DNA of 64,000 bases from Asaccharospora irregularis DSM 2635 (lineage in GTDB: Bacteria; Bacillota; Clostridia; Peptostreptococcales; Peptostreptococcaceae), in NCBI RefSeq assembly GCF_900129815.1, contig NZ_FQWX01000011.1:1-64000 (forward strand). Direction: 5' to 3'. Shown one piece after another: positions 2,525-58,889 of this stretch. Position 1 is the first letter of the stretch. Each line of letters opens with the position of its first letter. A model generated the notes under the pieces. The model had not been told where the DNA came from. It ran no database searches and saw only the letters and a program-made list of their open reading frames with translations. The position numbers and the translations under genes are program-made.

Positions 2525-3739
2525 ATGAGCATATTAGTACAAAAATTTGGAGGTACTTCAGTAGCATCATATGAAAAAATGAATGAAGTATGTAAAATAG
2601 TAGAAAGATACAAAGAAAAAAATTTAGATTTAGTTCTTGTAGTATCGGCAATGGGAAGAAAAGGAGCACCATATGCTACAGATACTTTGATAGACTTATG
2701 TAGTGCAATAAACGATAAGCCGTCAAAAAGAGAAAATGATTTAATAATGTCTTGTGGAGAGATAATATCAGGAACAATTCTGGTAAATATGCTTAAATCA
2801 AAAGGGATAGAAGCAATATTTTTAACAGGTCAACAGGCGGGTATACTTACTAGCGACGAGTTTTCAAATGCCAGAATAAAATATATAAATCCAAAGAGAA
2901 TTCAAGAAGAAGTAAAACAAGGCAAGGTAGTAGTAATAGCAGGTTTCCAAGGGGCAACAGAGGATGGAGAAATAACTACTCTTGGTAGAGGAGGAAGTGA
3001 CACATCTGCAGTTGCAATAGGCAAGGCATTAGGGTCTGAAACTGTAGAGATATATACGGATGTAGATGGTATAATGACGGCAGATCCTAGGGTAGAACCG
3101 AGAGCTAAGGTACTGGACTTTATAAGTTATGAGGAAGTATTCCAAATGGCAGATAAGGGGGCTAAAGTTATACATCCAAGAGCTGTACAATTAGCCAAAG
3201 ATGGTAATATAACTTTAGTTATAAAAAACACATTAAATCCAACTTATGAAGGAACTAAGATAGGATCATCATCTGGATATAAAAATATAGATTCAGAGTA
3301 CGAAGGACAGGATGATTTTATAGCAGCTGTTGCCAATAAAGATAAAGTAGTACAAGTGAAGATAAAGTCAGAAGAAGATATATTTACAGAAGTATTAAAT
3401 GAAATAGAAAATAGAAATATAAGCATAGACATGATAAATTTCTTTATATCAGAAAAAGCATTTGTTACAGACGAGGCAGACATAGAAGAGTTAGAAGAAA
3501 TTTTAAATAAGTTTGATTTAGAGTATAAAATAAACGGAAAATGTGCAAAGGTTACGTTAATAGGTTCAAAGATAACAGGTGTTTCAGGTGTTATGGCTAA
3601 AATAGTTAGAGGTCTATCAAAAGCAGGAATATCATTACTTCAAACATCAGATTCAAATATGACAATATCTTGTTTAGTACATGAAAAAGACATGCAAAAA
3701 GCAGTTAATGCAATACATGGGGAATTTTATAAAAAGTAG
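2525..3739 (+). CDS. dapG: aspartate kinase (DapG-like)
   Basis: Phosphorylates L-aspartate, the first step to lysine, threonine, methionine and diaminopimelate. The N-terminal amino-acid-kinase domain starts VQKFGGTSVA and contains GRGGSDTSAVAIG at about residues 158-170. Two ACT regulatory domains follow from about residue 265. The length (404 aa) matches single-chain Bacillus DapG, and the synteny (YlxY, M16, YmxH) supports DapG rather than LysC or ThrD. The SD AGGAGG lies at the stop of the preceding gene. The operon ends at the strong terminator immediately downstream. Which amino acid gives feedback inhibition cannot be read from the sequence. Confidence 0.93.
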   Translation: MSILVQKFGGTSVASYEKMNEVCKIVERYKEKNLDLVLVVSAMGRKGAPYATDTLIDLCSAINDKPSKRENDLIMSCGEIISGTILVNMLKSKGIEAIFLTGQQAGILTSDEFSNARIKYINPKRIQEEVKQGKVVVIAGFQGATEDGEITTLGRGGSDTSAVAIGKALGSETVEIYTDVDGIMTADPRVEPRAKVLDFISYEEVFQMADKGAKVIHPRAVQLAKDGNITLVIKNTLNPTYEGTKIGSSSGYKNIDSEYEGQDDFIAAVANKDKVVQVKIKSEEDIFTEVLNEIENRNISIDMINFFISEKAFVTDEADIEELEEILNKFDLEYKINGKCAKVTLIGSKITGVSGVMAKIVRGLSKAGISLLQTSDSNMTISCLVHEKDMQKAVNAIHGEFYKK

Positions 3740-55443: not shown

Positions 55444-56028
55444 TTAAAAGCAGGCTGCGATCTTGTATGAGGCAACGGTATTAGACAGTATATTGTCTAG
55501 TATATAATTTGTGATGCTATTACATATATAAGTAGAAAATAGTAAATCGTTTTTGCAACTTAGCTCTTTTGTGTATTCATCAAACATATCCTTGAAAAAT
55601 TTTTCTAGGCTAGTTCCTATATAATCACCTTTGAACTTATATAATTTTTCTTCTTTTGCAGCTGAGGCTAATTCACGTTCATAGATTACATGTTTACCCA
55701 TGCTGTGTTTGAATTCCCAACGCTGGCTGTGCGCTACGCAGAAAAAATCGCACAAAAAATGACATATTACACCTAATTCCTGACTTAATTTGCTTATTGA
55801 AAAATATTTAGAAACATAGTCTAAAGTAAGACTACATAAATATTTTATTTTGTCTAAAATCATATCGAAAGATTCTTTCATATAATGTTTTTTTAGAACA
55901 TACTTTGATACCGCATCTGGCTTTATATTTCCATATATAAAATTTTTTTCACTAATAAAAAATGATTTATTGCTATCTATACTATCTACAACAGATTTAG
56001 CTATTATAAAGTGAGTACCCATTAACAT
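55444..56028 (-). CDS. zinc-dependent phospholipase C-like protein, no signal peptide
   Basis: 194 aa, mostly helical. It has the plc-type His/Asp pattern: GTHFIIAK near residue 4, GNIKPDA near 29, and LGVICHFLCDFFCVAHSQRW near 85-104 with H-x3-D and a further His. Unlike secreted clostridial alpha-toxin it is short and lacks a signal peptide or C2 domain. A cytoplasmic hydrolase is inferred; the lipid substrate is unknown. The SD GAGGTGC precedes the ATG. Confidence 0.8.
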   Translation of the reverse strand: MLMGTHFIIAKSVVDSIDSNKSFFISEKNFIYGNIKPDAVSKYVLKKHYMKESFDMILDKIKYLCSLTLDYVSKYFSISKLSQELGVICHFLCDFFCVAHSQRWEFKHSMGKHVIYERELASAAKEEKLYKFKGDYIGTSLEKFFKDMFDEYTKELSCKNDLLFSTYICNSITNYILDNILSNTVASYKIAACF

Positions 56029-56148: not shown

Positions 56149-57549
56149 TTATATATTTTTAGTATATTTTCTTATTAACCTGTTAGCTTTAGACTGTGAT
56201 ATGTTAAGGTCTTTGGCCACTTTATAAGAACTTTTGAGTTTATTATAAGAATTGATGATTATATTCTTTTCACATTCTTCAATCATACAATCAAAACTTT
56301 TTTTGGAGTCTTGATTGTTACAACTTGTACTATCTGAGTTGGAAAAATTATTTTTGCTAGATTTAAGTAAGAACTTGGGTAAACTGTCAACATCAATATA
56401 GTTATTGTTGCAAGTAAGTATAATGTTTTGTATGATATTTTGAAGTTCTCTTATATTTCCAGGAAATTTATATTTTGATATCACATCTATTGCCTCTTTA
56501 GATAATGTTTTGTGCTCATTAAAATTTATACAGTATCTTTTAAAATAATATTTTATAAGTTCCACTAAATTTTCTTTACGATCCCTAAGAGGTGGTAGGT
56601 TTAATTCGATTACATTTAATCTATAATAAAGATCTTCCCTAAATGCCCTACTATTAACTTTATCTAGTAGGTTTACATTAGTAGCTGAAATTATTCTTAT
56701 ATCAACCTTTTTTTCTTTGAGACTTCCTACAGGGATAAAAGTTTTATCCTGGATTAACTGTAAAAACTTAGCTTGTAAATCTTTTGGTATGTCTCCTATC
56801 TCATCTAAAAACAATGTGCCTCCATCAGCCAACTCTATAAGACCGACTTTACCTTTGGAATTTGCACCTGTAAAGGCTCCTGATGTATATCCAAAAAGTT
56901 CTGATTCAAGCAAATGAGGAGAAATTGTATTGCAGTTTATAGTTATAAAAGGTCCATTAGATCTTTTGCTATTATAGTGTATGTGTCTTGCTAAAGAACT
57001 TTTTCCTGTACCAGATTCACCGAGTATAAGTATACTTACATTTGTTTTAGATACATTTTTTACTATATCAATAATAGGCTTCATTGCACTACCATTCATA
57101 ATGACAGTATCTTCAATTTTTAAAGTTGTTCTATAAAGTGTTTCAACTTCAGATTTATATCTTTTGACCTGTTTTTTAGTGTCCTCTAGTGTATTTTTTA
57201 TATTATTCAACTCAGTTATATCCCTGCAGTTTTCTACTACATACTCTAGGTTTCCAGAGGAATCAAATGTAGGTGTTGCAGTTATTATGAGTTTTTTACC
57301 AGCTAAAGTATCTTGTTCTAAAGAAACCTTACACTTAGTTTTTATAACTTCTGGTATAGGGCTTTTAGTTGCATACCCAGAGTCCATAAGAAATGATACA
57401 TTTTTACCTATAATATCCTTTCTTTTAATACCGTAGTTTTGTTCAAATGATTTATTACAGTATATTATAGTGCCCTTATTGTCAGATACACAGATTTCAT
57501 CATGAGATGCCTCAGAGATTTTTTTATAAAAATCCAAATCTTTAACCAA
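56149..57549 (-). CDS. PAS-domain sigma-54-dependent transcriptional activator
   Basis: 466-aa enhancer-binding protein. An N-terminal PAS domain (about 5-115, with DNKGTIIYCNKSFEQNYG) is the sensor; no receiver domain is present. The AAA+ domain has Walker A GESGTGKSS near 181, the sigma-54 contact loop GAFTGA near 228 and Walker B TLFLDEIGD near 248; the R-finger region RLNVIELNLPPLRDR follows. A C-terminal helix-turn-helix (SYKVAKDLNISQSKANRLIRKY, about 440-462) binds DNA. The start is TTG with SD GGGGGGGAG. The gene is divergent from the EamA gene, its probable target. Confidence 0.92.
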   Translation of the reverse strand: MVKDLDFYKKISEASHDEICVSDNKGTIIYCNKSFEQNYGIKRKDIIGKNVSFLMDSGYATKSPIPEVIKTKCKVSLEQDTLAGKKLIITATPTFDSSGNLEYVVENCRDITELNNIKNTLEDTKKQVKRYKSEVETLYRTTLKIEDTVIMNGSAMKPIIDIVKNVSKTNVSILILGESGTGKSSLARHIHYNSKRSNGPFITINCNTISPHLLESELFGYTSGAFTGANSKGKVGLIELADGGTLFLDEIGDIPKDLQAKFLQLIQDKTFIPVGSLKEKKVDIRIISATNVNLLDKVNSRAFREDLYYRLNVIELNLPPLRDRKENLVELIKYYFKRYCINFNEHKTLSKEAIDVISKYKFPGNIRELQNIIQNIILTCNNNYIDVDSLPKFLLKSSKNNFSNSDSTSCNNQDSKKSFDCMIEECEKNIIINSYNKLKSSYKVAKDLNISQSKANRLIRKYTKNI

Positions 57550-57640: not shown

Positions 57641-57763
57641 GAGTTATTTATGACTCGGGAAATTAGTAAAACCATATTAAATATCTTATAAGTTAAGATA
57701 AAACTATATAATAAGTCATTTATAACTTATTATATAGTGAGTATAAGTCTAATTCAACTTATA
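57641..57763. promoter_or_regulatory. three dyads, candidate enhancer sites for the sigma-54 activator
   Basis: All have the form (A/G)AGT-N8-ACT(T/C). Site A 57641-57656 (4-bp arms); site B 57704-57737 (13-bp perfect arms, 8-bp spacer); site C 57742-57763 (7-bp arms, 8-bp spacer). Centres are 72 and 32 bp apart, close to seven and three helical turns. Confidence 0.6.
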
Positions 57764-57875
57764 ATATTTATAATTAATTTAAGTCTTAGAAAATGTATTT
57801 ATATTTATTGATAGATATATTGGAATTTCAATGACTATATACAAAATGAAGTCAGCATTTTAATTATTAAAAATC

Positions 57876-57890
57876 TGGCATGGTAATTGC
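57876..57890 (+). promoter_or_regulatory. sigma-54 (-24/-12) promoter of the EamA gene
   Basis: TGGCAT-GGTAA-TTGC followed by TTT matches the consensus TGGCAC-N5-TTGC(A/T). GG (57877-57878) and GC (57889-57890) are separated by exactly 10 bp. Predicted start of transcription is near 57902, about 52 bp before the gene. Confidence 0.88.
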
Positions 57891-57953
57891 TTTACTTAAA
57901 TATGGAAATTATATTATAAAAATATGAAATTTGCATAAGAGGGGTAATATATT

Positions 57954-58889
57954 ATGGAAAAGAAAAAAGGTTATATTTTCATTTGCATTGCAGGATTATT
58001 GTGGAGTACTTTAGGACTATTTGGAAATGTTTTGATGGGGTATAATCTTACACCAGAACAAGTAGCTTTTACAAGATTGTTTTTAGGTTTTTTGGTACTG
58101 ACTATATACAGTATTGTTAAGAACCCAAGTGCACTTAAAATAAGTAAAAAGGGAATTATTTACTCTATTATGATTGGTATTGTATGCCAAGGACTTTTTA
58201 ATTTATGTTATTTCAAGGCTATTAATAGCGTTGGGGTATGCATATCAGCAGTGCTACTATATACATCACCACTATTTTTGACTGTATTTTCAAAAGTATT
58301 TTACAAAGAAAATATAAATATTCAAAAAATAGTATCTTTAGGATTTTGCTTTTTAGGAGCTGTGTTGGCAGTTACAGGTGGAAAACTAGATGTAGATAAA
58401 TTGAATGGATTAGGTCTAATATTAGGTATTTCTGCTGCTATTACATATGCGCTTATGCCTATAATAAGTAAAAATATTTTGAAAGAGTGTTCAAGTATAA
58501 CAATTTTAATATATGGTTTTTTATTTGGTTCAATATTTATGTTGCCATTAGCAAAGCCTTTAGAAATGTTAAAATACTCTCTAAACCCTAAAATATTAGT
58601 TTGGATGTTAGTGCTGGGAATTGTACCCGCAGCACTAGCTTATATATTCTATGTTGAAGGAGTGGCAAAAGGCGTAGAATTATCTATAGCTGGTGTTATT
58701 GCATCAGTAGAATTAATATCATCAGTATTAATTGGGTGGACAGTACTAGGAGAAAATTTTTCAATTGTCAAGCTAATTGGTTTAGGATTTATGGTGGTAT
58801 CAGCACTTATAGCTGTAAAGGCTTCTAAACAAGAAGAACCATTACTAAGTGAGGATATAGAACAAAATACACTACACGAAGCGCTATAA
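57954..58889 (+). CDS. EamA/DMT family transporter, sigma-54 controlled
   Basis: 311 aa with ten hydrophobic helices in two EamA repeats (the second begins near LGLILGISAAITYAL). The DMT family moves amino acids, nucleotides and other metabolites, often outward; the substrate is not known. Expression should depend on sigma-54 and on the divergent PAS activator, because a -24/-12 promoter and three dyads lie between them. A terminator follows, so it is a one-gene transcript. Confidence 0.92.
   Translation: MEKKKGYIFICIAGLLWSTLGLFGNVLMGYNLTPEQVAFTRLFLGFLVLTIYSIVKNPSALKISKKGIIYSIMIGIVCQGLFNLCYFKAINSVGVCISAVLLYTSPLFLTVFSKVFYKENINIQKIVSLGFCFLGAVLAVTGGKLDVDKLNGLGLILGISAAITYALMPIISKNILKECSSITILIYGFLFGSIFMLPLAKPLEMLKYSLNPKILVWMLVLGIVPAALAYIFYVEGVAKGVELSIAGVIASVELISSVLIGWTVLGENFSIVKLIGLGFMVVSALIAVKASKQEEPLLSEDIEQNTLHEAL

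Follow-up and report, generated by a model that had tools for sequence, protein, structure and literature searches.

A probable sigma-54 activation switch between a PAS activator gene and a divergent EamA transporter gene in Asaccharospora irregularis, orthologous to XhaQ-rhaT of Clostridioides difficile

In the 64,000-nucleotide stretch of the A. irregularis DSM 2635 genome analyzed here (the window), genes for a PAS-type sigma-54 activator and for an EamA transporter are divergently oriented on either side of a 404-bp intergenic region. This arrangement raises the question of whether the activator controls its neighbor and, if so, through which sites and for what kind of transport. Our results strongly favor a local sigma-54 activation switch in which the activator drives the divergent EamA gene, because the divergent pair, a -24/-12 promoter and a set of dyads are kept together while relatives of the transporter that are not flanked by an activator lack both dyads and promoter. 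The system has already been described in C. difficile, and the A. irregularis locus is its orthologue.

Anatomy of the divergent locus

The activator gene starts with a TTG codon that is preceded by a ribosome-binding site (GGGGGGGAG). Its product matches the Pfam families PAS_9, Sigma54_activat (8e-66) and AAA_lid_14, with HTH_50 matched below its cut-off; the translated reading frame contains GAFTGA and has the AAA+ domain, lid, HTH and sensor domain of a bacterial enhancer-binding protein. Identity to the Clostridioides orthologues is 72-75%. Among named activator models PrdR scored best (NCBIfam NF041552), but its 406 bits fall well short of the cut-off, 795. The transporter matches the EamA domain (PF00892, 2.9e-40) in two stretches and reaches 46.8 bits with the NCBIfam YddG model, for which the cut-off is 300. 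As both models fall far under their cut-offs, neither name applies to these proteins. The activator gene is followed by a PF00882 (Zn-dependent phospholipase C-like) gene (window 55444-56028, minus strand), and genes of similar size occur near the pair in other genera; as a clue to the substrate, this gene may be bystander synteny.

Table 1. Features of the activator-transporter locus (positions in the window)
Feature	Position	Strand	Basis or remark
PAS-AAA+ (GAFTGA)-HTH sigma-54 activator, 466 aa, orthologue of C. difficile CD1412/XhaQ	56149..57549	-	Pfam and identity
Dyad 1, GAGTTATTTATGACTC, presumed activator site (UAS)	57641-57656	.	Motif match
Dyad 2, AAGTCATTTATAACTT, presumed UAS, 14-bp perfect arms when extended, adjoins activator -10	57713-57728	.	
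SigA-like promoter of activator: TTGAAT (57757-57752), N17, TATAAT (57734-57729)	57729..57757	-	10/12 consensus positions
Dyad 3, AAGTCTAATTCAACTT, presumed UAS, contains activator -35	57745-57760	.	
Sigma-54 -24/-12 promoter, TGGCATggtaaTTGCT	57876-57891	+	TGGCAT-N5-TTGCT; core invariant in orthologues; C. difficile start mapped (PMC7438776)
EamA/DMT ten-helix transporter, 311 aa, orthologue of C. difficile CD1413/rhaT	57954..58889	+	Pfam and predicted structure

A reading made earlier from the sequence only had placed a TGGCAT-N5-TTGC promoter, with GG and GC 10 bp apart, 64 bp before the EamA gene, and this promoter was found exactly there (Table 1). The GG (57877-57878) and GC (57889-57890) are separated by 10 bases and fit the consensus TGGCAY-N5-TTGCW, the GC element lies 64 bp from the ATG at 57954, and the transporter transcript would be expected to start near 57902. 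The same genome carries a sigma-54 gene (PF04552, 6.7e-61, G000:C17). Over the whole genome (2.62 Mb) the -24/-12 pattern has 7 matches, compared with 1 for a reversed control, and strict RAGTY dyads occur within 400 bp upstream of only one of these 7, the EamA site.

Upstream of this promoter the same reading had proposed three dyads with centers 72 and 32 bp apart, and motif matching agreed: all three fit RAGTY-N6-RACTY, with centers at 57648.5, 57720.5 and 57752.5. One dyad had been credited with perfect arms of 13 bp, a figure that needs correction to 14 bp for the middle dyad. Dinucleotide shuffles of the intergenic region gave a mean of 0.01 dyads, and none of 300 shuffles reached the three observed. 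The single dyad motif is without enrichment in the 2.62-Mb genome (51 matches versus 71 for a reversed-pattern control), and among the matches listed genome-wide no other two dyads lie within 250 bp of one another. A wider regulon in A. irregularis was rejected on this ground and because the other six -24/-12 sites have no strict RAGTY dyads upstream.

Conservation and natural variants in the family

We searched 71 genomes of the same family for relatives of the transporter. In 18 genomes from six genera, A. irregularis counted, the closest transporter relatives stand beside a divergent orthologue of the activator (60-78% identity over the compared part). All 18 carry TGGCAT-N5-TTGCT at a distance of 53-78 bp from the transporter start, and no genus that was compared shows internal variation in the -24/-12 core. 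In 17 of the 18 the strict dyads number two or three; the remaining locus (L022) has one strict dyad and two with a single mismatch. The two dyads closest to the transporter are spaced 32 or 33 bp apart in five of the six genera, the exception being genus g10. The fraction of invariant columns was higher for half-sites than for the rest of the intergenic region in g9 (0.70 versus 0.31) and g3 (0.90 versus 0.65), while in g23 the half-sites (0.90) and the flanking intergenic sequence (0.79) were nearly equally conserved. Alignment of the intergenic region with its orthologues had been suggested as a check of the sequence-only reading, and both the dyads and the -24/-12 promoter proved to be conserved. 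This conservation supports the claim that a PAS activator with a GAFTGA motif acts on the divergent EamA gene via the dyads. One argument of that reading, that the 72-bp spacing reflects whole helical turns, was discarded as unsupported, since in other genera this spacing is 49-52 or 61 bp, or a strict third dyad is absent.

Neither a dyad nor a -24/-12 promoter was detected in the 450 bp upstream of the transporter relatives without an adjacent activator (17 loci, some species being represented twice); a TGGTAA-type match occurs at -509 in two of these loci (L025/L042). In a protein tree three activator-less lineages (g5, one g23 genome, and g18 with g20) are nested among the activator-linked EamA proteins. 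Activator, dyads and promoter thus show co-loss.

Within Clostridioides, Nie et al. 2019 predicted XhaQ with the target rhaT (PMC6615313, Table 1) and, in their text, grouped the XhaQ UAS motif with those of SarR, YglR, XptB, AguQ and DhaR. A 2020 start-site study mapped the transcription start of C. difficile CD1413/rhaT at the promoter ATGGCATAGTTTTTGCTTA, found its expression in a sigL::erm mutant to be 0.31 (0.19 by qRT-PCR) and named CD1412/XhaQ as the regulator (PMC7438776, Table 4). This promoter is present letter for letter in L011/L097 (L097 is the wider locus of the L011 genome), where the activator is 73% identical to that of A. irregularis. The start site and the sigma-54 dependence proposed from sequence are therefore borne out in the C. 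difficile orthologue by the work of others. The published fold changes speak for SigL, not for XhaQ itself being required. With orthologous divergent activator and EamA genes, a -24/-12 promoter and upstream sites, the A. irregularis locus belongs to the XhaQ-rhaT regulon and has the same layout as the C. difficile pair. It differs in genus, in an additional (third) strict dyad located 72 bp farther upstream and in a transporter about 62-66% identical, and the system is known here from sequence. A review lists "CD1412" as a putative c-di-GMP phosphodiesterase (PMC8428550); we have set this aside, as it conflicts with the XhaQ identity in PMC7438776. A literature search found no further studies of the CD1412/CD1413 pair. 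Three details are absent from the main text of the published accounts and are modest additions: the overlap with the activator promoter, a re-specified duplicate in one Clostridioides genome (G005) and a separated pair in another genome (G032).

These natural variants separate parts of the locus from one another. Genome G010 has kept an intact activator gene together with two dyads, while the EamA gene has decayed to a remnant and the -24 element reads TGGCG (L088 4480-5000). In G032 the activator orthologue and the transporter are on different contigs; upstream of the transporter, two strict dyads persist together with a -24/-12 promoter. The moved activator (L089 3253, minus strand; 3303-3378) is accompanied by three dyads and by an orphan -24/-12 promoter behind which no gene is apparent; this promoter may be a relict or belong to a small RNA. 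The moved gene sits between TauE-like genes, near a proline-racemase-like gene. G005 has a second pair (L087, G005:C157), with an activator 59% and a transporter 54-56% identical and with a sigma-54 promoter. Its three dyads are RATTC-N6-GAATT in exact 32-bp steps, at -210, -178 and -146 from the expected start, and the half-site is AATTC where others have AAGTC. The recognition helix of this second activator is ISQPKAYRLIKKY, while others have ISQSKASRLIRKY or close variants; the joint change of half-site and helix favors the view that the dyads are recognized by the activator next to them. A c-di-GMP-II riboswitch lies near this second pair (L087 303-388, minus strand). In genus g13 (L093 4613-5003, L094 4761-5152), a more distant activator (43%) is accompanied by AAGTC dyads, and a -24/-12 promoter precedes a DUF1097 gene and a gene for a CoA-transferase III.

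Role of the dyads and the promoter of the activator

In the mechanism that we infer, from the ligand and binding to the dyads through autorepression to the substrate and direction of transport, the PAS activator (the XhaQ orthologue) would sense a small molecule and bind to the RAGTY-N6-RACTY dyads, which lie about 150-250 bp upstream of the expected transporter start. Its AAA+ domain would then open the sigma-54 RNA polymerase poised at TGGCAT-N5-TTGCT, so that the EamA transporter would be synthesized in the presence of its substrate or of a related signal. Occupancy of dyad 3 would cover the -35 of the activator and that of dyad 2 would lie beside its -10, so that activator synthesis would probably be held down.

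It is conceivable that the dyads are operators of the activator promoter only, with the sigma-54 promoter activated from solution or via other sites. That the activator -35 sits within a dyad, with an identical register across five genera, would fit this explanation, as would the persistence of the G010 dyads despite decay of the EamA gene and its -24. However, the EamA gene of G032 keeps its two strict dyads upstream of the -24/-12 promoter with the activator gone from its side, and the dyads lie at the distance usual for clostridial sigma-54 activator sites, 100-250 bp upstream (PMC6615313). Hence, we regard a purely operator function as unlikely. Even less probable, and to be given very little weight, is that the dyads bind another regulator and not the adjacent PAS activator. 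Such a regulator might be suspected from the sub-threshold HTH_50 match, but the dyads track the activator gene, EamA relatives that lack it having none upstream, half-site and recognition helix are both altered in the second G005 pair, and more distant activators with similar HTHs also have RAGTY dyads nearby. Our preferred reading remains that the adjacent activator recognizes the dyads and activates the EamA gene.

The same dyads may also act on the activator itself. In g3, g9, g15 and g23 the best SigA-like match whose -35 falls in a dyad agrees in offset (3) and spacing (17), and this embedded register is common to five genera; g10 differs. Taken one by one, the cases are weak, with P values of 0.06-0.48 when the shuffles leave the half-sites in place and individual values for the embedded -35 spanning 0.06-0.57, and no comparable SigA-like register with the dyads was seen on the transporter strand. 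The shared register across genera is suggestive of a real overlap between -35 and dyad. From this geometry, we lean slightly toward autorepression, in which bound activator limits its own synthesis. Evenly balanced, in our view, is the fuller proposal that the dyads have a double role, as an enhancer of the sigma-54 transporter promoter on one strand and an operator of the SigA-type activator promoter on the other, with the 32/33-bp spacing tied to the -35/-10 geometry, and that the G005 duplicate has rewired its specificity from AAGTC to AATTC together with the helix. If this is true, the G005 duplicate would represent natural insulation between two sister switches.

Binding sites for XylR overlap XylR's own promoter. 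XylR is known to limit its own synthesis, which here is a prediction for the A. irregularis activator. In systems of the HbpR (PMC3040749) and XylR type, the activator gene is divergent from its target with the sites in between, as it is here, whereas sensor domain and hosts differ and the overlap with the activator promoter is a predicted one in A. irregularis. GabR of B. thuringiensis (PMC4279683) and PrdR of clostridia are likewise PAS-AAA+-HTH activators of -24/-12 promoters, but their targets are catabolic enzymes.

Fold and direction of the transporter

The predicted structure of the transporter (mean pLDDT of 86.5) has the ten-helix DMT fold, and a sequence search found no solved relatives up to E = 1. 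Structure comparison gave TM scores by target of 0.85 for the choline importer LicB (7paf) and 0.81 for the exporter YddG (5i20). Both share the ten-helix fold with the EamA transporter, but at an identity of only 15-18%, at which neither direction nor substrate is transferable. As the predicted fold is about equally like an exporter and an importer, it decides neither direction nor substrate. The sequence-only reading had the PAS sensor activating export; activation of the divergent EamA gene stands, but the term "exporter" is not established given these fold matches and the literature name RhaT. Import, for example of an amine or another nutrient, is compatible with the switch and is a serious competitor to export; we assign import a chance a little short of even. 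It would accord with the LicB match, which is as good as that of YddG, and with clostridial sigma-54 regulons serving mainly nutrient use (PMC6615313). More distant activator relatives adjoin BCCT carriers, a CoA-transferase III gene and others, neighbors that are at most a loose hint at amines. Conversely, the sequence models matching the transporter include two that stay below cut-off, one for the aromatic amino acid exporter YddG and one for carboxylate/amino acid/amine transporters. No riboswitch or T-box that might name the substrate was found near the activator-less EamA genes.

In summary, for a conserved transporter in the SigL network of C. difficile our analysis supplies a testable binding motif, RAGTY-N6-RACTY, and the natural variants, with a moved activator, a decayed target and a re-specified duplicate, allow tests of recognition and of activator feedback. 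Comparative genomics indicates that the XhaQ-rhaT switch predicted in C. difficile is old within its bacterial family and forms a self-contained module.
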